Source: an uncultured bacterium (GTDB taxonomy: Bacteria; Bacillota_I; Bacilli_A; RFN20; CAG-826). Taken from it: a stretch of DNA of 64,000 nucleotides. Under the pieces are notes generated by a model. That model was not told the origin of the DNA. It did no database searches and saw only the letters and a program-made list of their open reading frames with translations. Where the stretch lies: the NCBI GenBank assembly GCA_949283025.1, contig CASDRB010000004.1, positions 1 to 64,000 of the forward strand, in the 5' to 3' direction. Made by a program: the position numbers and the translations under genes. Positions 4,473 through 33,739 of this stretch are shown here, in pieces (within the stretch, counting starts at the first letter, position 1; each line of letters starts with the position of its first letter).

Positions 4473-7112
4473 ATGATAAAAATAAATTCCTTATGCAAAA
4501 ACTATTTTACAAAGCACGAAGTGATTAACGCTTTGGAAAACATCAATTTAACTATTCCTAACAAAGGAATGATTTTTATTTGTGGCAATTCTGGCAGTGG
4601 GAAAACAACCTTACTAAATTGTCTTGGTGGATTAGATGATTTTGATTCTGGCAATATTCAAATAAATGATTGTATCTATGATAAAAAAGTTGATACAAAA
4701 CATTTTGGGTATGTGTTTCAAGAATATCATTTATTAAATTACTTAAGTGTCTATGATAATTTAAGTATCGCTTTAGGCTTTGATGATGAACAAAAAATTG
4801 ATGAAGTTTTATATTTGGTTGGTTTAAAAGGATATCAAAAAAAGAAAGTTATAGACTTGTCTGGTGGTGAAAAACAGCGCATTGCTATTGCAAGAGCTTT
4901 ATTAAATGGTGGGAATTTTTTATTATGCGATGAGCCTACAGGTTCATTAGATAAAAAAACATCGGAACAAATTTTTGATATTTTAAAATCGCTTAGCAAA
5001 ACAAAAACTGTTATTGTTGTAAGCCATGATGAAATATCAGCAAAAAAATACGCCGATCGAATTATAACTCTTGAAGATGGAAAAGTTTTTGAAGATGTAT
5101 CATTTGAGCAAAATGAAGAAATTTCAATCAAAAATCATTATTTTAATAATAAACGGCGTCTAAATTTTAAAACGATGATTAAAATTGCTACAAAAGTTAT
5201 GTTTGCTAGACCTATAATATCAATCATTTCGTTATTATTAAGTTGTTTGTCTGTCATCATGTTATCTGTTTCTTTGTCTATCAATAACAAAAATCAAAAC
5301 GAAACTATTGTTATGAGCATGATGGAAAATGGCAATACATGTTTAGTTATAAATAAAACGATAAAAGACGAAAATAATAATGAATATGTAGATAATTTAA
5401 ATCAAATTGATCTTGAACAATTAGAACAATTAAGCCAACAAAAGCCGTATCTTATTTATAAATTTGGAAATGGTAGAATAACAAACGCAAATATTTCTAT
5501 TATCATGAATGGCTATTCAGAAATTTCTTCTAATTTGTTGGATGAATTCAAATATACTTTGCTTTATGGAGAAATGCCGATTAAAGATAATGAAGCTATT
5601 ATAAGCGAATATATTTTTTCTCTGCTTCAAAAAAATGGCATCAAAAACATCAATGGTGTCAACTATCCAAAAACATATGCAGATATTATAGGTATGCCAT
5701 TGGCAATTGATGATATAGAATTTGAAATTTGTGGAATCGTGGATACCAATTTCAATTTCGATCGATATGCTTCTATAATTGAAACCGATTATGATAATAG
5801 TGGTTTTAAAACAGGTCTTGAATATTCCTTTCATACTACTCTTTTTGTTAAACAAGGGACGTACAAACACCCATTACTAACAAATTATGGAGATTATATT
5901 GATGATTATACATATCAGTTGCAGTATTTTATAAAAAATAACGGCGATTTATTTTTTGGTGGTCAAACAATTACTGCAAATGATATACCCGAGACATATA
6001 AAATTGTTATTAAAGATGAAAAAAGCATAGACCAGTTGAAAAATAATGAAATAGTTGTTCCATTTAGTCTTGCTATGCCTTTTTCTTTGACTGAATATTT
6101 AAATTTAGGAGCAAGAAAATACGCTTACTTACATTTTGAAGAAATAGAAGATTTATTTGCCCAAGATTATCCAGATGGTCATACCGTTGAAGATTATATT
6201 GAATATTTAATAATCAACAATTATAAAGATTTTAAGTATTGTCAGGTTGACAAAGATGAATTATTTGATCTTGGAATAAAAGAATTTTTAGAAAGAAATC
6301 CACAAATTTTTAGCGATTGTTTTAATAAAAAATATTCTTTAGGTTTTAAGTTGGACAGCATTAATGAATTGGACATTGAAGAAGTAGAAATTGTCGGGCT
6401 GTATTATCAAGATTATGAAAATTTTTATAATAACAGTGAACTATATACTTGCAATGATTTATTGACTAGTTTAAAACAAGAATCAGCGTATTATTTCGAT
6501 GATATTGCATATTGTGTTTTTGCTTTCAATGATGATTTTAATCACAATTTAAAATTGTATTCATTATTAGACAATTATTATGAACCATCAGAATATTATT
6601 GCTATTCGTATGGAACAAAAATAAAAATATCTGGATATAGTTATCTCAATAGAAATGAAAATTGTCTCTCTTATATTAGTAACTTAAATAATCTAAATAA
6701 TTTAGCAAACATCAGTAAATATATATCGTTAGGAATGATTGTTGTTTTGTTTTTTGTTATTATTTTACATATCGTTAGTAGCGTTAATATATCGCTTGTT
6801 AATATAGGCATATTAAAATCTTTAAATTATAATTTTAATGAAATAGCTAAAATATATGTTTTTATTCCTACAGTTGTGTTTATGCTGTTAGCAGTAATTA
6901 GTAATTGTTTATCAATTTTAGTTATAAATATTTTAAATCATTATCAAATAGAAACACAAATGTTGTTATTTTCTGCATATAATTTCTCGTATTTTGTATT
7001 CTTATTAAGTATTGTTGTAATATCCATTTTAGTTTTTACTACATCTATTTTAGCTTTGTTTTCAGCGTATAAAAAACCGATAAATCATCTCATAAACAAA
7101 ATAGATAAATGA
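4473..7112 (+). CDS. ABC transporter, ATPase fused to FtsX-type permease (second of a pair)
   Basis: 879 residues, a paralogue of the protein at 1762-4389. Walker A GNSGSGKT is at 38-45, signature LSGGE at 129-133 and Walker B LLCDEPTG at 150-157. One membrane span follows the ATPase, then a large extracytoplasmic domain, then three C-terminal spans. Both extracytoplasmic domains share short motifs: MSMIEN/MSMMEN just after the first span, GIIDTDFN/GIVDTNFN in the middle, and GIYYGNY/GLYYQDY near the end. That confirms duplication of the whole gene. The ATG follows a hairpin and lacks a Shine-Dalgarno. The pair probably forms one heterodimeric exporter or mechanotransmitter; the cargo is unknown. 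Confidence 0.87.
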   Translation: MIKINSLCKNYFTKHEVINALENINLTIPNKGMIFICGNSGSGKTTLLNCLGGLDDFDSGNIQINDCIYDKKVDTKHFGYVFQEYHLLNYLSVYDNLSIALGFDDEQKIDEVLYLVGLKGYQKKKVIDLSGGEKQRIAIARALLNGGNFLLCDEPTGSLDKKTSEQIFDILKSLSKTKTVIVVSHDEISAKKYADRIITLEDGKVFEDVSFEQNEEISIKNHYFNNKRRLNFKTMIKIATKVMFARPIISIISLLLSCLSVIMLSVSLSINNKNQNETIVMSMMENGNTCLVINKTIKDENNNEYVDNLNQIDLEQLEQLSQQKPYLIYKFGNGRITNANISIIMNGYSEISSNLLDEFKYTLLYGEMPIKDNEAIISEYIFSLLQKNGIKNINGVNYPKTYADIIGMPLAIDDIEFEICGIVDTNFNFDRYASIIETDYDNSGFKTGLEYSFHTTLFVKQGTYKHPLLTNYGDYIDDYTYQLQYFIKNNGDLFFGGQTITANDIPETYKIVIKDEKSIDQLKNNEIVVPFSLAMPFSLTEYLNLGARKYAYLHFEEIEDLFAQDYPDGHTVEDYIEYLIINNYKDFKYCQVDKDELFDLGIKEFLERNPQIFSDCFNKKYSLGFKLDSINELDIEEVEIVGLYYQDYENFYNNSELYTCNDLLTSLKQESAYYFDDIAYCVFAFNDDFNHNLKLYSLLDNYYEPSEYYCYSYGTKIKISGYSYLNRNENCLSYISNLNNLNNLANISKYISLGMIVVLFFVIILHIVSSVNISLVNIGILKSLNYNFNEIAKIYVFIPTVVFMLLAVISNCLSILVINILNHYQIETQMLLFSAYNFSYFVFLLSIVVISILVFTTSILALFSAYKKPINHLINKIDK

Positions 7113-7149
7113 AAATCGCCGTTTTAATTTAATTTAAGCAAATCTAAAA

Positions 7150-7341
7150 GTGGATATTTTGACCACATGTGATAAAGAAAGAATAGAAGAAGTGGGATTA
7201 AAAACTTATTTTGATACTGTTTTTGCTGATGAGATTAACTATCAAATGACGTCTAATCAAAATACTAATTTGTATGAATTTATCAAAGATGATAATATTA
7301 AACAACAATTAAAAGATTACTATTTTGAAAATTATATCTAA
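7150..7341 (+). CDS. small unrecognised ORF, possible gene remnant
   Basis: 63 codons from a GTG that lacks a convincing ribosome site. Composition is hydrophilic, with no signal peptide or membrane segment and no recognised motif. It may be the tail of a decayed gene or a chance frame between the ABC pair and the lipoprotein. The frame upstream closes at 7135-7137, so no longer intact version is present. Confidence 0.3.
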   Translation: MDILTTCDKERIEEVGLKTYFDTVFADEINYQMTSNQNTNLYEFIKDDNIKQQLKDYYFENYI

Positions 7342-7404
7342 TATTATTAATAATTTTGCAACCTTCTATCTTTTATTGCGTCTTAATAAATAGAGGATTG
7401 TTTT

Positions 7405-7974
7405 ATGAAAATATATAAATTGGTATCGGTATTTGTGATTCTAATTTCACTTAGTCTTATTAGTTGTGGACAGCAAGTTAAAGAAAGTTCTTTTTTTGCC
7501 AATTTTATATTTGATTGTGTATACAATCAAGATAAGCAAGAATATGTTGCTGATTTATTATTTGATAGTAATTATTTATCTGATGATTTTAATCAAATTG
7601 AAATCCCATCTAATTTAGTAGCAGGAGACGAACTTAAAATCAAACACACAGGTGATTTTATTGTTGCTGAATCATATCCAGGAATACTATATCTAGACGG
7701 GGAGTTGATTTCTTATTCATTTGTTTTAACTGATATTATAGGTATTCATGTCGATGACTCATATATAACAAAAGATGTTTTGTCTGCATACGTTTTAAAT
7801 AATGAAAATGTCATTTTAAATGATGATGGTGAATTTATATCATTAGATGAATATCAAGGACACGATATTTTTCTTAGTGTAGATAAATCAAAAGAGGAAA
7901 CTTGCCCAGATGGGGCATGGTGCACACCACAATTAAGATACATTGCTGGTTTATATGCTTATAAACCTCGCTAG
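7405..7974 (+). CDS. predicted lipoprotein of unknown function
   Basis: 189 residues. The N terminus has lysines, a hydrophobic stretch and a lipobox LISC with Cys at about residue 21, so it should be lipidated and surface-anchored. The C terminus holds a short Cys pair (ETCPDGAWCTPQ) that could form a disulfide or bind metal. The ribosome site AGAGGA lies seven bases before the ATG. It follows two MacB-like ABC proteins, whose class often handles lipoproteins, so a functional link is possible but unproven. I do not recognise the family. Confidence 0.75.
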   Translation: MKIYKLVSVFVILISLSLISCGQQVKESSFFANFIFDCVYNQDKQEYVADLLFDSNYLSDDFNQIEIPSNLVAGDELKIKHTGDFIVAESYPGILYLDGELISYSFVLTDIIGIHVDDSYITKDVLSAYVLNNENVILNDDGEFISLDEYQGHDIFLSVDKSKEETCPDGAWCTPQLRYIAGLYAYKPR

Positions 7975-8002
7975 TTTTGTTATATTCAAAATTGTAGTTT
8001 TA

Positions 8003-8011
8003 TGCTAATAT
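8003..8011 (+). promoter_or_regulatory. extended -10 (TGcTAATAT) six bases before a GTG start
   Basis: TG at 8003-8004 and TAATAT at 8006-8011 form an extended -10. The GTG start is at 8018 and there is no Shine-Dalgarno. Transcription from this element would begin at or next to the start codon. Confidence 0.5.
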
Positions 8012-8017
8012 ATTAAA

Positions 8018-8794
8018 GTGATTTTATATTTTTCTGGAACTGGTAACACTAAATATATTGCCAAAACATTAAGCAGCAAATTAAATGATGAATGTTTTGA
8101 TTTAAAAAATATTTTGTGTGAGCAGCCATCTTCATCTTTTTATTCATCTAAACCTTTTGTCATATTGTCACCAATTTATGCCTGGGGACTGCCTAAAGAT
8201 ATTATTAATTTGATTAAAAAATCCATTTTTTTAGGTTCAAGCAATGTTTACGTTATTGTCACTATGGGTGAAAATTATGGTAGAGCCGATAAAAAAATTA
8301 AAAAGATAATTCTCAATAAGAAAATGTCGTATAAAGGCTTTTATGCAATAACAATGCCTAATAATTATTTTGTCGGTTTTAAACTTAATGATTATCAAAC
8401 ACAATTAAAAATAATAAGAAATAGTATAAAAGAAATTGATTATGTGTTTCAAAAAATTAAAAATAATGATTGTTTAATTTGTAAAGATAAAATAAAAACA
8501 GGTGGATTCATGTTAAGGCTCATGTCATCTTTAATTAATTTCTTTTTTAACTTAGGAGTTAATAAAATAAATAAATTTACTGTTTCTAATAATTGTGTAA
8601 AATGTTTAAAATGTGTCAATTTTTGTCCTATGCACAATATTGCAATGGAAGACGATAAGATTATTTTTAATAAAAAATGTATGTCTTGTTTAGGGTGTGT
8701 GTCTATTTGTCCAACTAATTCAATCGATATTAATCATAAGGCAAAGCGAAATGGTGTATACCATTTTCCAAATAATATAAAAGAATATGAATGA
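8018..8794 (+). CDS. EFR1-type flavodoxin plus 2[4Fe-4S] ferredoxin protein
   Basis: 258 residues. The N terminus YFSGTGNT is the flavodoxin phosphate-binding loop. The C-terminal part has two clusters, CVKCLKCVNFCP and CMSCLGCVSICP, each the CxxCxxCxxxCP pattern of bacterial ferredoxins. Such EFR1-family proteins are cytoplasmic electron carriers in anaerobes. The start is GTG; the flavodoxin loop lies only four residues in, so an upstream start is not needed. The 3' end overlaps the AlkD-like gene by 8 bp, so the two are co-transcribed. Confidence 0.85.
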   Translation: MILYFSGTGNTKYIAKTLSSKLNDECFDLKNILCEQPSSSFYSSKPFVILSPIYAWGLPKDIINLIKKSIFLGSSNVYVIVTMGENYGRADKKIKKIILNKKMSYKGFYAITMPNNYFVGFKLNDYQTQLKIIRNSIKEIDYVFQKIKNNDCLICKDKIKTGGFMLRLMSSLINFFFNLGVNKINKFTVSNNCVKCLKCVNFCPMHNIAMEDDKIIFNKKCMSCLGCVSICPTNSIDINHKAKRNGVYHFPNNIKEYE

Positions 8795-26763: not shown

Positions 26764-26805
26764 TTCCAATAAAAACGATGTTTAATTTGTTATATAGGTG
26801 AAAAG
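26764..26805 (+). promoter_or_regulatory. candidate ECF-sigma autoregulated promoter, copy 1
   Basis: TTCCAATAAAA (26764-26774), 11 bases, then TTTGTTATATAGGTGAAAAG (26786-26805). The same two blocks with identical spacing occur before the lipoprotein gene at 28385-28426. Read as hexamers, TTCCAA-17-TTGTTA is unlike a sigma-A promoter. The downstream block also supplies the ribosome site of the sigma gene. Confidence 0.65.
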
Positions 26806-26808
26806 ACT

Positions 26809-27336
26809 ATGGATGTTAAAAATAGATTGACTGAATTGTTGATTCGACTACAACATGAAGAAATAGACGCGTTTGATGAATTATATTCTTTAACAAAAAA
26901 AGGTGTCTATATATCGATTTTGCTCATCATAAAAAACGAGCATACTGTCGAGGATATTATGCAAGAGACATACATTGATTTTTTAAATCATAAAAATAAA
27001 TTAAAACATGATATAGATGTTTATGGATATTTAGTCCAATCAGCCAAAAATAAGGCAATCAATTATTGGAACAAAAATAAATATGAACATGAATATGTCC
27101 TGAGTAATTATCAAGATGAATCTTATCGTTTAGATAAAATTATTGATAGTGGTTTAATTCAAAAAATTCAAAACAGTCTAAACCCCAAAGAATATGAAAT
27201 ATTCATGCTTAAAGTGTTGGGAGATTATTCATTTAAAGAAATATCGAAGTTAAAAAAAGTTCCGATTGGAACATGCACATGGCTCTATCAAGAAGCTAGA
27301 AAAAAATTGCAAGATAAATTAGGAGGTATCTATTGA
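26809..27336 (+). CDS. ECF-type RNA polymerase sigma factor
   Basis: 175 residues. Region 2 contains ILLIIKNEHTVEDIMQETYI and the Trp/Tyr-rich NKAINYWNK; region 4 contains LNPKEYEIFMLKVLGDYSF then KEISKLKKVPIGTCTWLYQ, a helix-turn-helix. There is no region 1 or 3, as in group IV (ECF) factors. The next gene starts on the sigma stop codon (TGATG) and encodes a single-pass membrane protein in the usual anti-sigma position. The promoter is shared in sequence with the downstream lipoprotein gene, which suggests autoregulation. Confidence 0.88.
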   Translation: MDVKNRLTELLIRLQHEEIDAFDELYSLTKKGVYISILLIIKNEHTVEDIMQETYIDFLNHKNKLKHDIDVYGYLVQSAKNKAINYWNKNKYEHEYVLSNYQDESYRLDKIIDSGLIQKIQNSLNPKEYEIFMLKVLGDYSFKEISKLKKVPIGTCTWLYQEARKKLQDKLGGIY

Positions 27337-28379
27337 TGTTAGACGACAAAAATATTCGAGAATCCATCATTTCTAAAATTGATGAAAATCAAATTCCTGA
27401 TTTAAGCCAGGCAATTAAACAACAATATTTAAAACAAAAAAGTCATAAAGCCACTCCTTGGTATAAAAAACCGTTGTTTTATGGTGTGGGAACGCCAATT
27501 TTAGCATGTGGCATCATCGCTTGCATTGTGATTCCTAATGCTATCGCTAATCATAAAACTAGTGGTGAACCACCTATAATTAATGTTGGAAAACGGCAAG
27601 AAGAAATAGCTTTTGGCATCTTTTCAATCAATAACATTATTTCGAATAATAATCATTTGTCTTTAAATATAAAATCAAAGATTAATGTAGATCAATTTAA
27701 ACAACAAATTGATATTTTAAATCCGTACATGCTTACTAGTGAAGCAATGTTGAACAATGATTTTATTGTCGTACCTGAAGTTTTTATTTCCGAGGATTTA
27801 AATTACCAATATGTCATGCAAATCAATAATGAGTTTGGTCAAGTTGAATTTTACTATAACGAAACTTTTTTAAATTCTGATGACGATGAAGAAGAATACA
27901 CCATTGACGGGATATTTATAAAAGATGGTACCACCTATCAGGTCGAAGGGGAAAAATCGCTTGAAAATGATGTTGATGAAAAAGAGGCCGAATTGGAATT
28001 AAAAGCTTATTTAAATAGCAGCAAAGACTCTTATATTTTGATCGAGCAAGAAATTGAAAGCGAAGTCGACGAATACGAACAAAAATATTTATATAGTATC
28101 GTCGAGTCTGGTGTCGCTTATCGATATGTAGAAATAGGTTTTGAACACGAGATAAACGAAGAAAAGGTAGTGGAAATTAAAACTTACAATTCTGATATTT
28201 CTAATTTAGAAAGTGAGTATAAAATAACAAACGATGGCAAAGATTTTATTTGTGAATACAAAATGTTAGATAGCGAAGGCATAATTAACATTTCCATAAT
28301 CGATAATCAAGATGGTGGCACATCCTATTTATACGAAGAAAAAATGCTTGATTTTTCTTACATATTAAAAAGAAATTAA
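27336..28379 (+). CDS. putative transmembrane anti-sigma factor with acidic sensor domain
   Basis: 347 residues from ATG 27336, with AGGAGG nine bases upstream (a TTG three bases earlier is also possible). About 45 cytoplasmic residues, one span (about 47-71), then an extracytoplasmic domain of about 270 residues rich in Glu/Asp. This domain is related to the lipoprotein encoded next: both have FYYNETFLN/MYYNETILN, an acidic run, DGIFIKDGTTYQVEGEK versus EGIIKIDDQIYQMRGEK, and ILIEQEIESE versus VIVEQEIEGE. No zinc-binding HxxxCxxC anti-sigma motif is seen in the short N-terminal part. The anti-sigma role is inferred from position. Confidence 0.75.
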   Translation: MLDDKNIRESIISKIDENQIPDLSQAIKQQYLKQKSHKATPWYKKPLFYGVGTPILACGIIACIVIPNAIANHKTSGEPPIINVGKRQEEIAFGIFSINNIISNNNHLSLNIKSKINVDQFKQQIDILNPYMLTSEAMLNNDFIVVPEVFISEDLNYQYVMQINNEFGQVEFYYNETFLNSDDDEEEYTIDGIFIKDGTTYQVEGEKSLENDVDEKEAELELKAYLNSSKDSYILIEQEIESEVDEYEQKYLYSIVESGVAYRYVEIGFEHEINEEKVVEIKTYNSDISNLESEYKITNDGKDFICEYKMLDSEGIINISIIDNQDGGTSYLYEEKMLDFSYILKRN

Positions 28380-28384
28380 AAAAA

Positions 28385-28426
28385 TTCCAATAAAATATTA
28401 AATATGTTTGTTGTATAAGTGAAAGG
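28385..28426 (+). promoter_or_regulatory. candidate ECF-sigma promoter, copy 2
   Basis: TTCCAATAAAA (28385-28395) is identical to copy 1. After 11 bases, TTTGTTGTATAAGTGAAAGG (28407-28426) matches copy 1 at 17 of 20 positions, and all three differences are A/G changes. It lies six bases after the anti-sigma stop. Confidence 0.65.
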
Positions 28427-28439
28427 CGGTAAAAACCAC

Positions 28440-29285
28440 ATGAAAACAACAAAAATTTTAATCCCATTATTTGCAGTTATGTTATTAAGCGGCTGCGCTA
28501 CCACACATGAAAATAGCAATTTTCCACTTGACTCTGCGTCTAATTCCCACGATGTTTATGCATTTGAAGCAGCAACCTCAGTCGGATTATTAAACGATGC
28601 TTTAAACGATACTAATTTAAAAGCTAAGATGTCAAAAAAAGAATTGACACCAGATGTTATTGATGAAATAGCTAGTTATTTACCATCCATTGAAGCAGCA
28701 TTAACCGGTGTTGATAGTCTTGTTACTTCGATAAGCGCGGAAAGCGATTTAGCTGAATACGAGGCGATGATGACAGTTACTTATCAAGACATTAATTCAA
28801 TTAAAAATACATTTGTTATGTATTATAATGAGACAATTTTAAATGATGATGATCACGACGAAGACGAGCAAGAGTCTTACATTGAGGGAATTATTAAAAT
28901 CGATGATCAAATATACCAAATGAGAGGCGAAAAAGAAATTGAACAAGATGAATTTGAAATTTCTTTCACTTATCGTTTAGACGAACAAACCTATGTTATT
29001 GTTGAACAAGAAATTGAAGGCGAAAAAACAGAATTTCAATACGAAATTGTTAAAAATGGCGAATCGATTTATGAATACTCATTAGAAGTAAAACGCCACT
29101 CAGTTGAATTAGAAGTTGAAAATCAAACCATCGGCGAAAAAGAAATGGAATTCTATTTGTTTGAAAAAGATGGAAAAACTTTAATAAAGGCTGAAGTCGA
29201 AGACAATGAACAAGAATACGAAATACTATTTGAGAAGGTTATTGACGTTGAAACAGGAAATGTCAATTACATTGTCATTAACTAA
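28440..29285 (+). CDS. lipoprotein sharing the anti-sigma sensor domain
   Basis: 281 residues from ATG 28440; GGCGG lies upstream and the longer GTG frame overlaps the promoter block. Signal peptide with lipobox LLSGC (Cys near residue 19). The mature protein is very acidic (DDDHDEDEQE run) and homologous over most of its length to the extracytoplasmic part of the preceding membrane protein. It has its own copy of the sigma-gene promoter, so it is probably a regulon member: a sensor, decoy or effector for the same signal. A strong terminator follows. Confidence 0.75.
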   Translation: MKTTKILIPLFAVMLLSGCATTHENSNFPLDSASNSHDVYAFEAATSVGLLNDALNDTNLKAKMSKKELTPDVIDEIASYLPSIEAALTGVDSLVTSISAESDLAEYEAMMTVTYQDINSIKNTFVMYYNETILNDDDHDEDEQESYIEGIIKIDDQIYQMRGEKEIEQDEFEISFTYRLDEQTYVIVEQEIEGEKTEFQYEIVKNGESIYEYSLEVKRHSVELEVENQTIGEKEMEFYLFEKDGKTLIKAEVEDNEQEYEILFEKVIDVETGNVNYIVIN

Positions 29286-29296
29286 AATTACAAATT

Positions 29297-29318
29297 GACC
29301 CTTTTGGGTCTTTTTTTT
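29297..29318 (+). terminator. intrinsic terminator of the ECF module
   Basis: GACCC-TTTT-GGGTC (29297-29310) followed by T8, with As on the 5' side. Confidence 0.88.
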
Positions 29319-29365: not shown

Positions 29366-30823
29366 ATGAAAAGTTTTAAATTATCAGTATTGCTGTTCAT
29401 TTTGTTGTTAAGTGCGTGTCAATCGCCAATATCTAGTTCTAATACAGTTGATAGTAGTTTTCAAACTTCTACAAGCTCAATTGATGAATTTGAAAACTTG
29501 TACGATGAATTATACTATCCAACTTCGCAAGTTGAAATATACTTAAATTTTACAAATGAATCTATTTATAAACTAGCTAAATATTCTAGCGATGAAGTAA
29601 AAAAAGAAATGTATCATCCTTGCGATATTGTTTTTGTATTAAATCAAAAGAAATATGAATATTTAGAGGCCGGTGTAAGGATGAAAGGCAACACCAGCCG
29701 CAACGAGAATTTTGTGGACTCAAGCGGGCATATTTTGGGTTTGGTTCACTTTAAGATTTCTTTAAAAGAAACATTTGATGATGTTGAAGATAATGATTAT
29801 TATATTCGTTCATGGGAAAATGACGATGCTAGAAAGCAAAGAAAGGATCGCCAATTTGCTAATCAACAAAAACTTGATTTGAAATGGAATAAAAGTGAAG
29901 ATAAAACATTTACCAAGCAAATTTATGCTTATCATGCTTTTGAAAGCGAAGGCTTAATGGCGTCTAAAGTTCAGTTAGTTCAAGTTCATTTGCAAACTCA
30001 ATCAGATTCAAAAACATATTTATGCCAACTTCAAGAAACTATCGATAAAGATTTTTTAACGAAAAGATTAGCAAAAGAAAGTTCAAAAGGAAACTTATAT
30101 AAGTCTACATACACTGATATGGGTCCTGCTTCTTTAAGTCAAGAAAGCGTTTCATCAATTGGTGTTGAAGGTCCTAATTACCATCCTTCTTACGATTTAA
30201 AAACAAATGATAAAGAAGATGAAATCGACCATTCTTTGTTAACAAATTTAATTAATGTGGTCAATCAAAATACTTCAAATAGTGATAGTTTTAAACTTAT
30301 CATTGATGAATTAATTGATGTTGATTCAATATTAAAATATCAAGCATTATGCTGGGTAATTGGCAATCCAGACGATTCTAGAAATAATTCGAACAATTAT
30401 TACATTTATTTTAATTCGTCTAATGATAAAGCTTGCTTCATTCCATATGATTTTGATCGATGTTTTGGCATTTTAAAAGACTGGGAAGTTCATATGGAAG
30501 ACATCCCGTTGTATACAACAAAACAAAATCTAGGATATGAAAGAGTTTGGCAACCTAATCCATTGCTTTGGCGATTAATTATTAATACAGACGACTCATC
30601 TGTTGATTATTCGATTAAATGGCCAGTTATTAAATCGTATCAAGATTTATATGTGAAATATTGTCTTGAATATGGCCAAAAATATCTAGACGCAGCCAAA
30701 TTTGAGCAATTTAGCAATCAATTTTATTTTGCCAATAAAGATTATGAAGACGGTGGAGCAAATAATTTATCTTTTAAAAATTATGCTACAATAAAATTAT
30801 CAACTTTAGATCCTTATCTTTGA
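29366..30823 (+). CDS. CotH-kinase family lipoprotein
   Basis: 485 residues with signal peptide and lipobox LLSAC, then a Ser-rich linker. The CotH domain shows VRMKGNTSRN, LKYQALCWVIGNPDDSRNN with NNYYIYF, and FIPYDFDRCFGI, the conserved catalytic segments of the family. CotH proteins are atypical kinases of surface or spore-coat proteins; lipoprotein versions occur in many anaerobes. TATAAT lies 17 bases before the ATG, with only a weak ribosome site. Confidence 0.85.
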   Translation: MKSFKLSVLLFILLLSACQSPISSSNTVDSSFQTSTSSIDEFENLYDELYYPTSQVEIYLNFTNESIYKLAKYSSDEVKKEMYHPCDIVFVLNQKKYEYLEAGVRMKGNTSRNENFVDSSGHILGLVHFKISLKETFDDVEDNDYYIRSWENDDARKQRKDRQFANQQKLDLKWNKSEDKTFTKQIYAYHAFESEGLMASKVQLVQVHLQTQSDSKTYLCQLQETIDKDFLTKRLAKESSKGNLYKSTYTDMGPASLSQESVSSIGVEGPNYHPSYDLKTNDKEDEIDHSLLTNLINVVNQNTSNSDSFKLIIDELIDVDSILKYQALCWVIGNPDDSRNNSNNYYIYFNSSNDKACFIPYDFDRCFGILKDWEVHMEDIPLYTTKQNLGYERVWQPNPLLWRLIINTDDSSVDYSIKWPVIKSYQDLYVKYCLEYGQKYLDAAKFEQFSNQFYFANKDYEDGGANNLSFKNYATIKLSTLDPYL

Positions 30824-30849
30824 TGAATTAATAAATTTAAGAGGTGCTT

Positions 30850-32418
30850 ATGAAAAAACAAAATGCTTTATTAACATTACTTTTTATCCCTTTATTGTTG
30901 GCCGGATGTAATCCGATAACTACAATCACAACGAGTGAAAGTGAATCTAGTTTTGAAACAAGCAGTGATGTTATTACTTCCACATCGCTTCCTAAAGAAA
31001 CCATTGATGGCATGCTTGATTTTTGGGTTATCAATGACTATCATGGACGGATTGTTGCTAATGAATCTTTAAACGAACCTGGATTAGCAAAATTGGCTAC
31101 TTTTTTGCATTATAAAGAAGCTGAAAATTATGGAAATTTTGTCTTTTTAAGTTCTGGAGATACATTTCAAGATACATATGACTCCGGCACCAATCAAGGA
31201 GAATTAATTGCTAAAACATTGCCGATGCTTAATTGCGAAGCTATGGCGGTAGGCAATCATGAATTTGATTGGGGAATCGATATTTTAAAAAGAAATGCCG
31301 AATTTGCAGGGGATTGTGCTTTTTTGGGCGCAAATGTCTATCATTATGATGAAGAAAATAATACCGTTAGTGATTTTGCTTCTGAATTAGTCGATAAGTA
31401 TAAAGTTATTGAAAGAAATGGTGTAAAAATCGGTATTATTGGCATAATCGGTGAGGACCAAATCACATCAATTACTTCTACAATTTGGGAAGGTTATACA
31501 TTTGTTGAGCCGACCGAAATTGTCAAACAATGTTCAGATGAATTAAGAATTGATTATGGTTGTGATGTCGTTGTTGTTAATGCACATGCATCATATAGCG
31601 ATTTAGGATATCAATTTGTCAATGGCGTTACTAGCGTTTCACAAAATAGCAATGAAAGATATGTAGATGCTGTTTTTACTGCTCATTCACATGGATTTGA
31701 TTTTAAAACTAGCAATGGTGTTCCTTTTATTCAAAGTGGAAGTCATGGTGAATATATTTCTCATGTTAGATTAGATGTTAGTGAAGAAACTCCAAAATTA
31801 GAGACAATGGAATCGGTGTTTATTGGCAATAATTATACAGAAGATGCCCAAATAAAATCTTTTATTGACACTTATTTTGATGAAGATTTTTATCGCGTTA
31901 AAAATGAAGTTATTGGCACGATTGAAGGTGCTACTTATCTAACTTCTACAATGTCAGGTAGAATGTTAGCGTGGATGTCATATGAATTGATGAAAGACGA
32001 TGTTTCAAATATCGTTGTAGTTATCAATAATGGTGGTCGTTCTTCGATAAATTTATCTGAGGATGGAGAAATAACTAGAGGCCTTATTTTTGATGCATTA
32101 CCATTTCAAAATAAAACATATGTGACACAAGTTAAAGGTGCAGATATATTAAGAAATACTTCTAGTTATCCATATTATGCACCTAATCCAATCACTATCA
32201 ATAGTGATGAATATTATACAGTCGCTTGCATTGACTATGTTTTATTCCATAAAGACTCAAATCGCAACTATGATAAGTTTCCTTCTTTTAACGGAGAATA
32301 TTCATATGTGGAAGAAAGAGTATCATCTACATTGATAGAAGATTATTTTGCTATAAATCCAATTATTTCTTTTGAAGATTTATCTAGCCAACCAGGCTTT
32401 AATAATATTAGTAGGTAA
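30850..32418 (+). CDS. 5'-nucleotidase / metallophosphatase lipoprotein
   Basis: 522 residues from ATG 30850 (AGAGG five bases upstream). Lipobox LLAGC, then a Ser/Thr linker. The UshA-type metallophosphatase domain has WVINDYHGRI (first metal Asp-x-His), SSGDTFQDT, AVGNHEFDWG (Asn-His-Glu-Phe-Asp), VVVNAHAS and DAVFTAHSHGF. The C-terminal substrate domain has INNGGRSSINL and FQNKTYVTQVKG. It should hydrolyse extracellular nucleotides to nucleosides and phosphate. The secreted nuclease gene starts 5 bp later, so the two likely work in sequence. Confidence 0.9.
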   Translation: MKKQNALLTLLFIPLLLAGCNPITTITTSESESSFETSSDVITSTSLPKETIDGMLDFWVINDYHGRIVANESLNEPGLAKLATFLHYKEAENYGNFVFLSSGDTFQDTYDSGTNQGELIAKTLPMLNCEAMAVGNHEFDWGIDILKRNAEFAGDCAFLGANVYHYDEENNTVSDFASELVDKYKVIERNGVKIGIIGIIGEDQITSITSTIWEGYTFVEPTEIVKQCSDELRIDYGCDVVVVNAHASYSDLGYQFVNGVTSVSQNSNERYVDAVFTAHSHGFDFKTSNGVPFIQSGSHGEYISHVRLDVSEETPKLETMESVFIGNNYTEDAQIKSFIDTYFDEDFYRVKNEVIGTIEGATYLTSTMSGRMLAWMSYELMKDDVSNIVVVINNGGRSSINLSEDGEITRGLIFDALPFQNKTYVTQVKGADILRNTSSYPYYAPNPITINSDEYYTVACIDYVLFHKDSNRNYDKFPSFNGEYSYVEERVSSTLIEDYFAINPIISFEDLSSQPGFNNISR

Positions 32419-32422
32419 AAAA

Positions 32423-33739
32423 ATGAAAACTGTTAAAAAAATTATTCTTTTAATCAGTACTATTTCTTTAATTGGTTGTGCAAACAGCTCTTCAAAAAGC
32501 AGTATTACAACTAGTTCGAGTAGTGTCGATAACAGTTCTACATCGATAGGGGTTAGCGATAGCCAAGATGATACATCAATCTCAAGTTCAAGCGAAGAAA
32601 AAAACATTATTTATTTTAATGATCCAAATCAAAACGCAATTGAAACAACAGTATCGGATTTAATCAATCGCAAGAGCGTTGACGGTTTGTTATATCGCTT
32701 ATCAGGCGTGATGCAGTTTGTGCAAGAAACGACTTATGGTAGTTTTGAATTTAGTGATGAAACTGGTTCAATTTTGGTCTATGGTTTATCGAAAAATAGC
32801 AGTTGCATTACTTTTAATGGTTCAACATATTCATATCGAAACGCTAAAAATTTTTCATCCACTGGTTTAGCTGGTGGCGATGAAGTGATAATTGAATGCG
32901 TCTATGATATTTATACTTATGAGTCATCTGGATATTCTTTTGTGGAAATTATGGGTTATCCTGTTCAAGCCATCGACAACGGATATGATGATATTATTTC
33001 TAAAGCATATCAAGAAAACGATTTATATCAAGGCAATTACTACGATGGTATTGGAAATGTAGTAGGAAAACAGTTAGGATTACAACTTCACAATTTAATG
33101 ATGTCTACTCACAAAACCTATACTTCGTATAGTTCATTAAAAAATCATTTTAAATCAAGTGACACTCATGGGCATTCCACACCATATTGTTTTTATTCTA
33201 ATCGGTCGATATCTTCTTTAAATAGAGAACATATTTGGCCAAAATCTCTTTCTAATGATGTTTTTGATGAATTTTATGCTGGCGCAGATATTCATCACTT
33301 ACGGGCGACTGAATCAAATATTAATTCAATTCGCGGTAATGCAAGATTTGCTCCAATGTTTTATCATGAGTCTTTAAATATTATCACTTATAATGGTGGT
33401 ACTAATAATTATTATGGGGCTAGATCTGCATATGCATGCTTTGAACCTGCCGATGAAATAAAAGGGGATGTAGCACGCATCATTGCTTATGTATATGTCC
33501 ATTATACGACCACTTTTGGAGGCACGACAAAACAAGGCGTGACAGGAGAGTTATTTTTAAGTGATGTTTTAGGTGTTCCTGAAACCGAAGTAAATGATTT
33601 ATTGTGCTTATGGAATTCTATTGATCCAGTCGATCAATATGAGATGGAAAGAAATGAATATGCATTCAGTGTTCAAGGGAATCGAAACCCATTCATTGAT
33701 AAGCCTTCCTACATTGATTATTTATTTGGCAATCTTTAA
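32423..33739 (+). CDS. secreted endonuclease I family nuclease lipoprotein
   Basis: 438 residues from ATG 32423; the frame runs further upstream into the previous gene but the signal peptide starts here. Lipobox LIGC and a long Ser/Thr linker, then an OB-fold-like segment (about 80-150, GVMQFVQ and FEFSDETGSILVYG). The C-terminal endonuclease I domain has LNREHIWPKS (catalytic His), ADIHHLRA and SIRGNARF. Such enzymes cut single- and double-stranded nucleic acid outside the cell. It is paired with a 5'-nucleotidase. Its stop abuts that of the convergent uridine kinase gene with no gap. Confidence 0.9.
   Translation: MKTVKKIILLISTISLIGCANSSSKSSITTSSSSVDNSSTSIGVSDSQDDTSISSSSEEKNIIYFNDPNQNAIETTVSDLINRKSVDGLLYRLSGVMQFVQETTYGSFEFSDETGSILVYGLSKNSSCITFNGSTYSYRNAKNFSSTGLAGGDEVIIECVYDIYTYESSGYSFVEIMGYPVQAIDNGYDDIISKAYQENDLYQGNYYDGIGNVVGKQLGLQLHNLMMSTHKTYTSYSSLKNHFKSSDTHGHSTPYCFYSNRSISSLNREHIWPKSLSNDVFDEFYAGADIHHLRATESNINSIRGNARFAPMFYHESLNIITYNGGTNNYYGARSAYACFEPADEIKGDVARIIAYVYVHYTTTFGGTTKQGVTGELFLSDVLGVPETEVNDLLCLWNSIDPVDQYEMERNEYAFSVQGNRNPFIDKPSYIDYLFGNL

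Follow-up and report, generated by a model that had tools for sequence, protein, structure and literature searches.

In BlaR1 and the class D beta-lactamases, a sensor domain is homologous to an induced effector that removes the signal; no sigma system takes part, and the effector is an enzyme. An arrangement of this kind that does depend on a sigma factor is described for Clostridium thermocellum in the available part of PMC4711584: the membrane anti-sigma factor RsgI6 carries an external glycoside hydrolase family 10 (GH10) module 57% identical to Xyn10D, a secreted protein whose promoter is activated by SigI6, the autoregulated sigma factor of the same system, and most rsgI genes overlap the sigI genes. 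According to the accessible text of PMC5014341, RsiV of Bacillus subtilis, a one-pass anti-sigma factor of the extracytoplasmic function (ECF) sigma factor SigV, acts with its ectodomain as both receptor and in vitro inhibitor of the antibacterial protein lysozyme. In Streptomyces coelicolor, the lipoprotein CseA, encoded beside the ECF sigma factor SigE, damps the response from outside the membrane (PMC6767563, available part). Here we analyse a locus in the window, i.e. the whole examined stretch of 64,000 nucleotides (contig CASDRB010000004.1, uncultured bacterium, genome of 1.2 Mb in 16 contigs), in which genes for an ECF sigma factor, a one-pass membrane protein and a lipoprotein follow one another on the + strand. 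Comparison with related loci shows homology of the external parts of the last two proteins, repeated linkage of the three genes and a dedicated putative promoter that has the lipoprotein gene as its constant target and few other targets.

The sigma factor gene (26809..27336, +) encodes a protein of 175 aa with sigma-70 regions 2 and 4, which scored over the Pfam cut-offs for Sigma70_r2 (PF04542) and Sigma70_r4_2 (PF08281) and reached 59.6 bits against NCBIfam TIGR02937 (sigma70-ECF; cut-off 42.9); these two regions in a short protein are the hallmark of ECF sigma factors. The ATG of the following gene (position 27336) lies within the sigma stop codon (TGATG), one base being common to both. This gene (27336..28379, +) encodes the candidate anti-sigma factor (347 aa), composed of a cytoplasmic N terminus of about 45 aa, one transmembrane helix and an acidic beta ectodomain. 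The third gene (28440..29285, +) encodes a protein of 281 aa with the features of a bacterial lipoprotein, namely a signal peptide with a lipobox (LSGC), the cysteine of which (Cys19) is invariant among 11 aligned sequences. A hairpin followed by a T run (GACCC-TTTT-GGGTC-T8; 29297..29318, +), read from the sequence, is the probable end of the transcription unit.

The domain shared by the two proteins comprises residues 86-347 of the membrane protein (27591..28376, +) and most of the mature part of the lipoprotein. The external parts aligned over 268 columns with 27% identity (BLASTP E=7e-11), and profile-profile comparison gave a probability of 99.8% (E=8.7e-28, 224 columns), which bears out the homology proposed in an earlier note on this DNA; the motifs quoted there (YYNET, an acidic run, GI...YQ..GEK and EQEIE.E) are common to both proteins. 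A profile built from 25 membrane proteins of the first set of loci (defined below) matched 19/19 lipoproteins of loci L105-L123, several of which come from genomes already in that set, and a lipoprotein profile matched 12/12 membrane proteins of the same loci. Since the triplet of genes recurs at 55 of 76 loci, the likeness of the two external parts is not due to chance. Six invariant residues (Y80, E143, G150, G163, E171 and E193) are common to the membrane proteins and the lipoproteins.

The acidity of the external domain, also claimed earlier, exceeds that of local lipoproteins: the mean net charge per 100 residues was -13.5 in 55 membrane proteins and -15.2 in 55 lipoproteins, compared with -7.1 in 18 further lipobox proteins encoded at first-set loci, among which one value was as low as -18.4. 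AlphaFold2 models of the membrane protein and the lipoprotein (mean predicted local distance difference test score, pLDDT, of 76.9 and 75.7, respectively) consist of N-terminal helices followed by a long antiparallel beta meander of 15 and 14 strands (pLDDT mostly 80-95). In the lipoprotein model the acidity is strongest in four turns at one sheet end (turns 3, 5, 7 and 9, where conserved acids are concentrated, with an acidic excess of 3.7-7.8 each), and the turns at the opposite end are nearly neutral (-0.7 to 1.7), their placement being deduced from strand order and not from measured distances.

Profile searches with the window proteins and 30 relatives assigned the domain to no family in Pfam or NCBIfam, the scattered matches all being below cut-off. 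The best match of the sequence-profile search of PDB was a ribosomal protein (E=0.073), and a Foldseek search of solved folds gave none at E<=0.001. The best matches in a second look with VIA (Z 9.6, root-mean-square deviation (rmsd) 9.3; Z 8.3, rmsd 11.2) were closely followed by unrelated beta barrels. Porin, OspA-like, nitrobindin and ORP lipid-transfer likenesses were therefore not accepted as relations. RsiV and other anti-sigma ectodomains were absent among the fold matches listed, by which an RsiV fold is not excluded.

These results allow comparison with the systems named above. RsgI6/Xyn10D is, by analogy, a precedent for the design, in that the ectodomain of the window membrane protein is homologous to a product that would, judging from its promoter element, belong to the same regulon. 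The earlier view that no described family matches this three-gene design is thus too strong, given RsgI6/Xyn10D (PMC4711584) and RsiV (PMC5014341), as far as the available parts of both sources go. Unlike the acidic domain, the RsgI6 module is a glycoside hydrolase that binds polysaccharide; the N-terminal part of RsgI6 has about 165 residues, several genes are targeted and a lipoprotein is not mentioned in the accessible portion of PMC4711584. The window membrane protein gave no match to the RsgI N-terminal domain in Pfam or NCBIfam and has no family match there in common with RsgI6. RsiV differs in containing DUF4163 and DUF3298, and a paralogous lipoprotein is not mentioned in the part of PMC5014341 at hand; both domains were absent from the window protein (Pfam) and from the 16 families found at E<=0.1 for 30 members. 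Where a genome has no penicillin-binding transpeptidase match, lysozyme is moreover unlikely to be the ligand. The SigE-CseA system has no anti-sigma factor and is under two-component control, its sigE promoter is not a SigE target, and the available part of PMC6767563 does not describe CseA as related to the sensor. What is different here is the combination of an unnamed domain, a nearly one-output regulon, a lipid-anchored copy of the sensor domain and a spread in mostly transpeptidase-free Bacilli. No description of the triplet was recognised in searches of an open-licence library, which is not proof of absence.

Searching 95 relatives with the lipoprotein revealed matches in 36 genomes including its own, many with two adjacent copies. 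The window and 35 fetched loci formed a first set of 36 loci, 25 of which contain the triplet; the membrane proteins of L041, L044, L050, L052 and L063, missed by single-sequence search, were assigned by place, length and membrane span. The remaining 11 loci hold one lipoprotein-like gene (two in L046) and no adjoining sigma gene. Of 395 genomes sampled from the class, 97 then matched a 30-member profile of the family, and 40 loci hand-picked from these matches made up a second set, with the triplet at 30 of them; of the other ten, eight contain a lone lipoprotein, L167 a sigma factor with a membrane protein and L175 a membrane protein close to the end of a contig. Recurrence of the triplet, suggested in the earlier note as a check, was thus observed at 55 of 76 loci across the class. 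The order sigma-membrane protein-lipoprotein (forward) was found in 42 triplets (25 in the first set and 17 in the second) and the order lipoprotein-sigma-membrane protein (swapped) in 13, all in the second set; the gene linkage therefore outlasts rearrangement. A related-loci search with a single protein query gave no match.

The 19 named records bear the titles of uncultured Bacilli, Firmicutes or bacteria, with one titled Christensenella and one Clostridia in addition. The lipoprotein relatives of the last two lie at positions 4634-5566 of L122 and 2010-2954 of L123, respectively, where the profiles found no sigma or membrane-protein partner. The lipoproteins encoded in swapped order at L160, L183 and L186 end in long runs of Asp/Glu codons. 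The locus L164 (genome G181) is very probably the triplet of Acholeplasma laidlawii, which opens the family to study in culture. No identifiable gene of the triplet is named in one study of melittin-resistant A. laidlawii (PMC5764945) or in the available part of another (PMC6698929), and the triplet locus is not mentioned in the accessible part of a work that maps transcription starts in this species (PMC5138195).

The sigma and membrane-protein genes overlap in 49 of the 55 pairs, with open reading frame starts taken as the first in frame, and lie within 3 bases of each other in the remaining six. The most hydrophobic stretch of the membrane protein begins at residue 40-64 in all 55 cases, and the positive charge is higher before than after the membrane span in 53 of them, span and orientation being judged from hydropathy and charge only. 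The window protein has the same anti-sigma anatomy: its gene overlaps the sigma gene, and it has one span with the N terminus inside, in which helices are predicted at residues 4-14 and 23-35 with moderate confidence only. Zinc-type class I anti-sigma domains carry an HxxxCxxC signature; residues 1-45 of the window protein contain no cysteine and gave no match to this domain type in Pfam or NCBIfam. Because of the anatomy and the constant linkage, the membrane protein probably holds the sigma factor, and the two very likely form a sigma/anti-sigma pair.

Separate copies of a two-part element, CCAATAAA-N14-TGT, precede the sigma gene and the lipoprotein gene. In the window, the putative promoter of the sigma gene (26766..26796, +) consists of CCAATAAA (26766-26773), a 14-base spacer and TGTTATATA (26788-26796); the second copy, before the lipoprotein gene (28387..28417, +), has the same blocks and spacing (CCAATAAA, 14-base spacer, TGTTGTATA). 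Both genes are thus preceded by TTCCAATAAAA-N12-TTGTTRTAT with identical spacing. Both this spacing and a CGT or TGT block are what an ECF-type promoter would be expected to have.

In the first set, the pattern CCAAYAAW-N14-NGT was present upstream of 21/25 sigma genes, 20/25 lipoprotein genes, 0/25 membrane-protein genes and 0/208 other genes, in a test that was designed after the element had been seen and so was not blind for this set; the reversed pattern gave 0 in every gene class. Most of the misses were near ones, with a spacer one base longer or shorter or a variant common to both genes (L043 and L058). For the second set, the pattern was widened after comparison of that set (GTAATAA variant, spacer of 13-15 bases). 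The element was then found before 14/17 sigma and 16/17 lipoprotein genes in forward order, before 0/13 sigma and 9/13 lipoprotein genes in swapped order, and before 0/30 membrane-protein and 5/159 other genes. The searched regions extended 110 and 70 bases into sigma genes, compared with 20-40 bases into others, because some sigma starts are called too early. At the 55 loci together, the element lies upstream of 45/55 lipoprotein genes, 35/42 sigma genes in forward order, 0/13 in swapped order and 0/55 membrane-protein genes. Inspection by eye revealed TATAAT-like boxes in its place before the swapped-order sigma genes. These counts by gene order indicate that the lipoprotein promoter is the constant feature and that self-activation of the sigma gene accompanies the forward order.

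The element varies in step before the two genes: GTAATAAA-CGTTTGG precedes both in L043 and L191, and CCAATAAA-CGCTTTAT precedes both in L058. In G181 the lipoprotein-gene element (G181:C1:444468-444496) contains an CGTATATAT box. In L183 the element lies within the called lipoprotein frame, the start of which was probably called too early. Among the matches that lie outside triplets are those of second family lipoproteins, L178_6 and L180_9. An unbiased comparison of 34-base regions upstream of sigma and lipoprotein genes, which penalised variable spacers, exceeded the maximum of 60 shuffles at 16 of 25 loci (our own count); the window was not among these, not all of the winning alignments corresponded to the element, and the lipoprotein region of the same locus came top of the 25 in only 8 cases. 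A two-block comparison of the second set exceeded the maximum of 50 shuffles at 14/30 loci; in 13 of these, all of forward order, both regions contain the element, and in the fourteenth, L183, the match is a coding repeat. With its own copy of the sigma-gene element, the lipoprotein gene is very probably a target of the sigma factor, and the earlier proposal that one protein regulates and the other is induced gains support from this comparison.

Two minor observations concern these upstream regions. In L044 and L057 the predicted -10 block is so near the called sigma start codon that the transcript could be nearly leaderless. L054 and L056 have in common, upstream of their lone lipoprotein genes, a different two-part element (AACAAGTCA ... 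TATCGTACAT), which is perhaps the promoter of another alternative sigma factor.

The number of further targets appears small. With 0-1 mismatch, only two copies of the element were detected in the genome of the window, before the sigma and lipoprotein genes; 2 mismatches gave 12 more, compared with 8 for the reversed control. An exact search for CCAATAAA-N14-YGTWWT gave 36 places in 34 genomes, 17 of them triplet promoters and 19 elsewhere, against 18 for the reversed control (our own count). In G058, G070 and G079 the only two matches were the two triplet promoters; in the genome of the window this exact pattern missed the lipoprotein copy and matched two other places (control 1). In the 13 swapped-order genomes, exact CCAAYAAA-N14/15-CGTWTA was found at 14 places (control 4), ten of them before lipoproteins of the family. 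One of the other four (L200) lies inside a coding frame. The remaining three, outside triplets, could be extra targets or chance: L202 1501-1528 (G205:C2), L208 1501-1528 (G205:C8) and L209 1501-1528 (G329:C75). The L208 copy precedes a gene for an exported-looking protein adjoining a histidine kinase-like gene, as judged by eye. The regulon thus looks like the triplet itself, perhaps with a few additions in some lineages, and the lipoprotein gene appears to be the invariable and almost only target of a dedicated sigma factor.

To our knowledge, it is poorly understood how wall-less bacteria, whose membrane is directly exposed, sense and answer attack. No penicillin-binding transpeptidase match was obtained in the genome of the window, nor in G307, G058, G181, G224, G250, G243 or G236; such a match is present in G100 and G150, which have lone-lipoprotein loci. 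Among the 395 class genomes (hand count; two scans taken as covering the same genomes), 14 of the 97 with the family had a match, compared with 161 of the 298 without it, figures that rest on one marker family and on unevenly sampled lineages. The family thus leans to genomes without a transpeptidase match, and most carriers seem to have no cell wall. As a strict rule, restriction to wall-less cells was rejected, at least six triplet genomes (G065, G075, G083, G165, G263 and G274) having such a match. Because most genomes with the family lack the match, a peptidoglycan fragment or lysozyme is unlikely to be the general ligand.

The presence of one domain in both sensor and product suggests that a signal is detected and then dealt with by additional copies of the sensor. 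In such a sense-and-soak model, the ECF sigma factor would be made together with the membrane protein and probably held at the membrane by the 45-residue cytoplasmic end of the latter. The acidic ectodomain would meet a ligand outside a membrane that, in most carriers, seems to be without peptidoglycan; our best guess is a cationic molecule, i.e. an antimicrobial peptide, a polyamine or a metal. Binding may inactivate the anti-sigma factor, perhaps through regulated proteolysis, and free the sigma factor, which, as comparison of the upstream sequences predicts, would transcribe the lipoprotein gene in nearly all triplets and its own operon in the forward order. Many lipid-anchored copies of the domain would then bind and neutralise the ligand and protect the membrane, and the lower occupancy of the anti-sigma factor would let the response end itself. 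The model is favoured by the homology of the two domains, the linkage of the triplet in both gene orders, the distribution and variation of the promoter element, the conserved acids at one sheet end and, as described below, by lone lipoproteins and by membrane-protein ectodomains that group with lipoproteins. The anti-sigma role, ligand sensing by the ectodomain, the cationic ligand, and soaking and reset by the lipoprotein are steps that we infer; the full model is tentative, its chances falling somewhat short of even. The titration or feedback circuit and the cation or cationic-peptide ligand put forward in the earlier note are plausible.

A more specific version holds that the triplet is a surface-immunity circuit, new to description and widespread in mostly wall-less Bacilli. 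A private ECF sigma factor would have essentially one output, a lipid-anchored decoy of the receptor domain of the anti-sigma factor, which would capture cationic membrane-active molecules at its acidic edge, thereby protecting the membrane and resetting the switch. In its entirety this version is doubtful. If true, it would be a rare case of a duplicated receptor that ends the cell's own stress response. Should the decoy reading prove wrong, a family can still be given to unlabelled proteins of 97 of 395 genomes, and a likely regulator to those in triplets. The circuit as a whole also lends itself to testing, being a compact and recurrent switch of three genes with a promoter code that can be read, almost a single output gene and an as yet unnamed domain.

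Several observations weigh against the sense-and-soak model. No recognised anti-sigma domain was found in the membrane protein (Pfam, NCBIfam), and the fold searches were without a clear match. An M50 (site-2-type) protease is present in the genome of the window; as the family occurs in all 14 control genomes, it says little. Autoregulation of the sigma gene is not universal, the element being absent before all 13 swapped-order sigma genes. Turns 1, 11 and 13, at the acidic sheet end, are weaker (2.0, -0.5 and 2.6). The paralogues are old, with about 27% identity in the window, and only at 3 of 55 loci (L053, L169 and L181) does the membrane protein match its own lipoprotein better than any other, which is not expected from fine-tuned sharing of one ligand.

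The last two points bear on the possibility that the proteins share ancestry only, i.e. that a common surface module serves in the anti-sigma factor as a sensor and in the lipoprotein for some other task at the membrane, structural or protective, that is unrelated to sensing and does not feed back on it. We built a tree of 104 ectodomains by a quick method, excluding the near-identical genomes L037, L055 and L062; it has many long branches and implies six switches between membrane protein and lipoprotein. In forward-order loci it contains old, separate groups of membrane proteins and lipoproteins with parallel subgroups, a split that favours this explanation, as do the 27% identity in the window and the lone lipoproteins; in swapped-order loci the two kinds are mixed and weakly resolved. 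Because of the old forward-order split and the own best match in 3/55 loci, the shared domain is no proof of a shared ligand. Concerted evolution of each pair was rejected as a general rule (tree; own best match in 3/55). Against mere common descent stand the invariant Y80, E143, G150, G163, E171 and E193 and the acidity, common to both proteins, and two cases in which membrane-protein ectodomains cluster with lipoproteins. The L053 membrane protein (7034-8140) clusters with two lipoproteins, that of its own locus and one other (support 99), and shares 57% identity with the former over residues 106-208, a probable gene-conversion patch; the membrane proteins of L157, L160 and L169 fall among lipoproteins (support 87). 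These groupings look as if the domains were interchangeable. On balance, ancestry without feedback is rather unlikely.

Lone lipoproteins bear on a second alternative, direct protein feedback, in which the lipoprotein would pair with the anti-sigma ectodomain, shield it from the protease and turn the sigma factor off, with no need to soak up a ligand. It would thereby work as a co-repressor outside the cytoplasm, much like CseA or RseB, the latter being a precedent of this kind. Homologous beta-rich domains can pair, and the element counts make the lipoprotein the constant target, as this explanation would require. Loss of CseA, itself a lipoprotein located outside the cytoplasm, raises sigE expression (PMC6767563, available part). 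However, own pairs show no extra likeness in most loci, and lipoproteins in at least seven genomes without a detected anti-sigma partner seem to be more than repressors. Among 11 presumed lone-lipoprotein genomes, ten gave one match each to the anti-sigma profile and G162 none. The inference rests on G080, G082, G091, G094 (one genus), G100, G131 and G157, in which a lipobox gene lies away from contig ends; not counted were G133 and G158, whose loci were not fetched, G146, whose gene is at the end of a contig, and G162, which gave no match. Because at least these seven hold the lipoprotein without a detected partner, it probably has a job of its own and seems useful without the circuit. Distant anti-sigma factors can escape the profile (the true one of G181 matches only from profile position 73), which limits this argument and weighs, like the points above, against the sense-and-soak model. 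Direct feedback is nevertheless unlikely. A very improbable third possibility is that the anti-sigma factor gauges the supply or maturation of the lipoprotein by pairing with it, shortage freeing the sigma factor in a homeostatic control: a regulon of almost only the lipoprotein and the sigma operon would suit a supply controller, but the pairing is without support and a sensor that is a copy, not a partner, of its cargo is left unexplained.

Two further features of the same genome are worth recording. Downstream of the locus, positions 29366-33739 of the window contain three further probable lipoprotein genes (lipobox identified by script for two and by eye for the third), none of which is preceded by the sigma element at 0 or 1 mismatch. 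On contig 8 (L003 660-1791), a second ECF sigma gene overlaps a gene for a 197-aa protein with one likely membrane span, and these two are a candidate for another sigma/anti-sigma pair.

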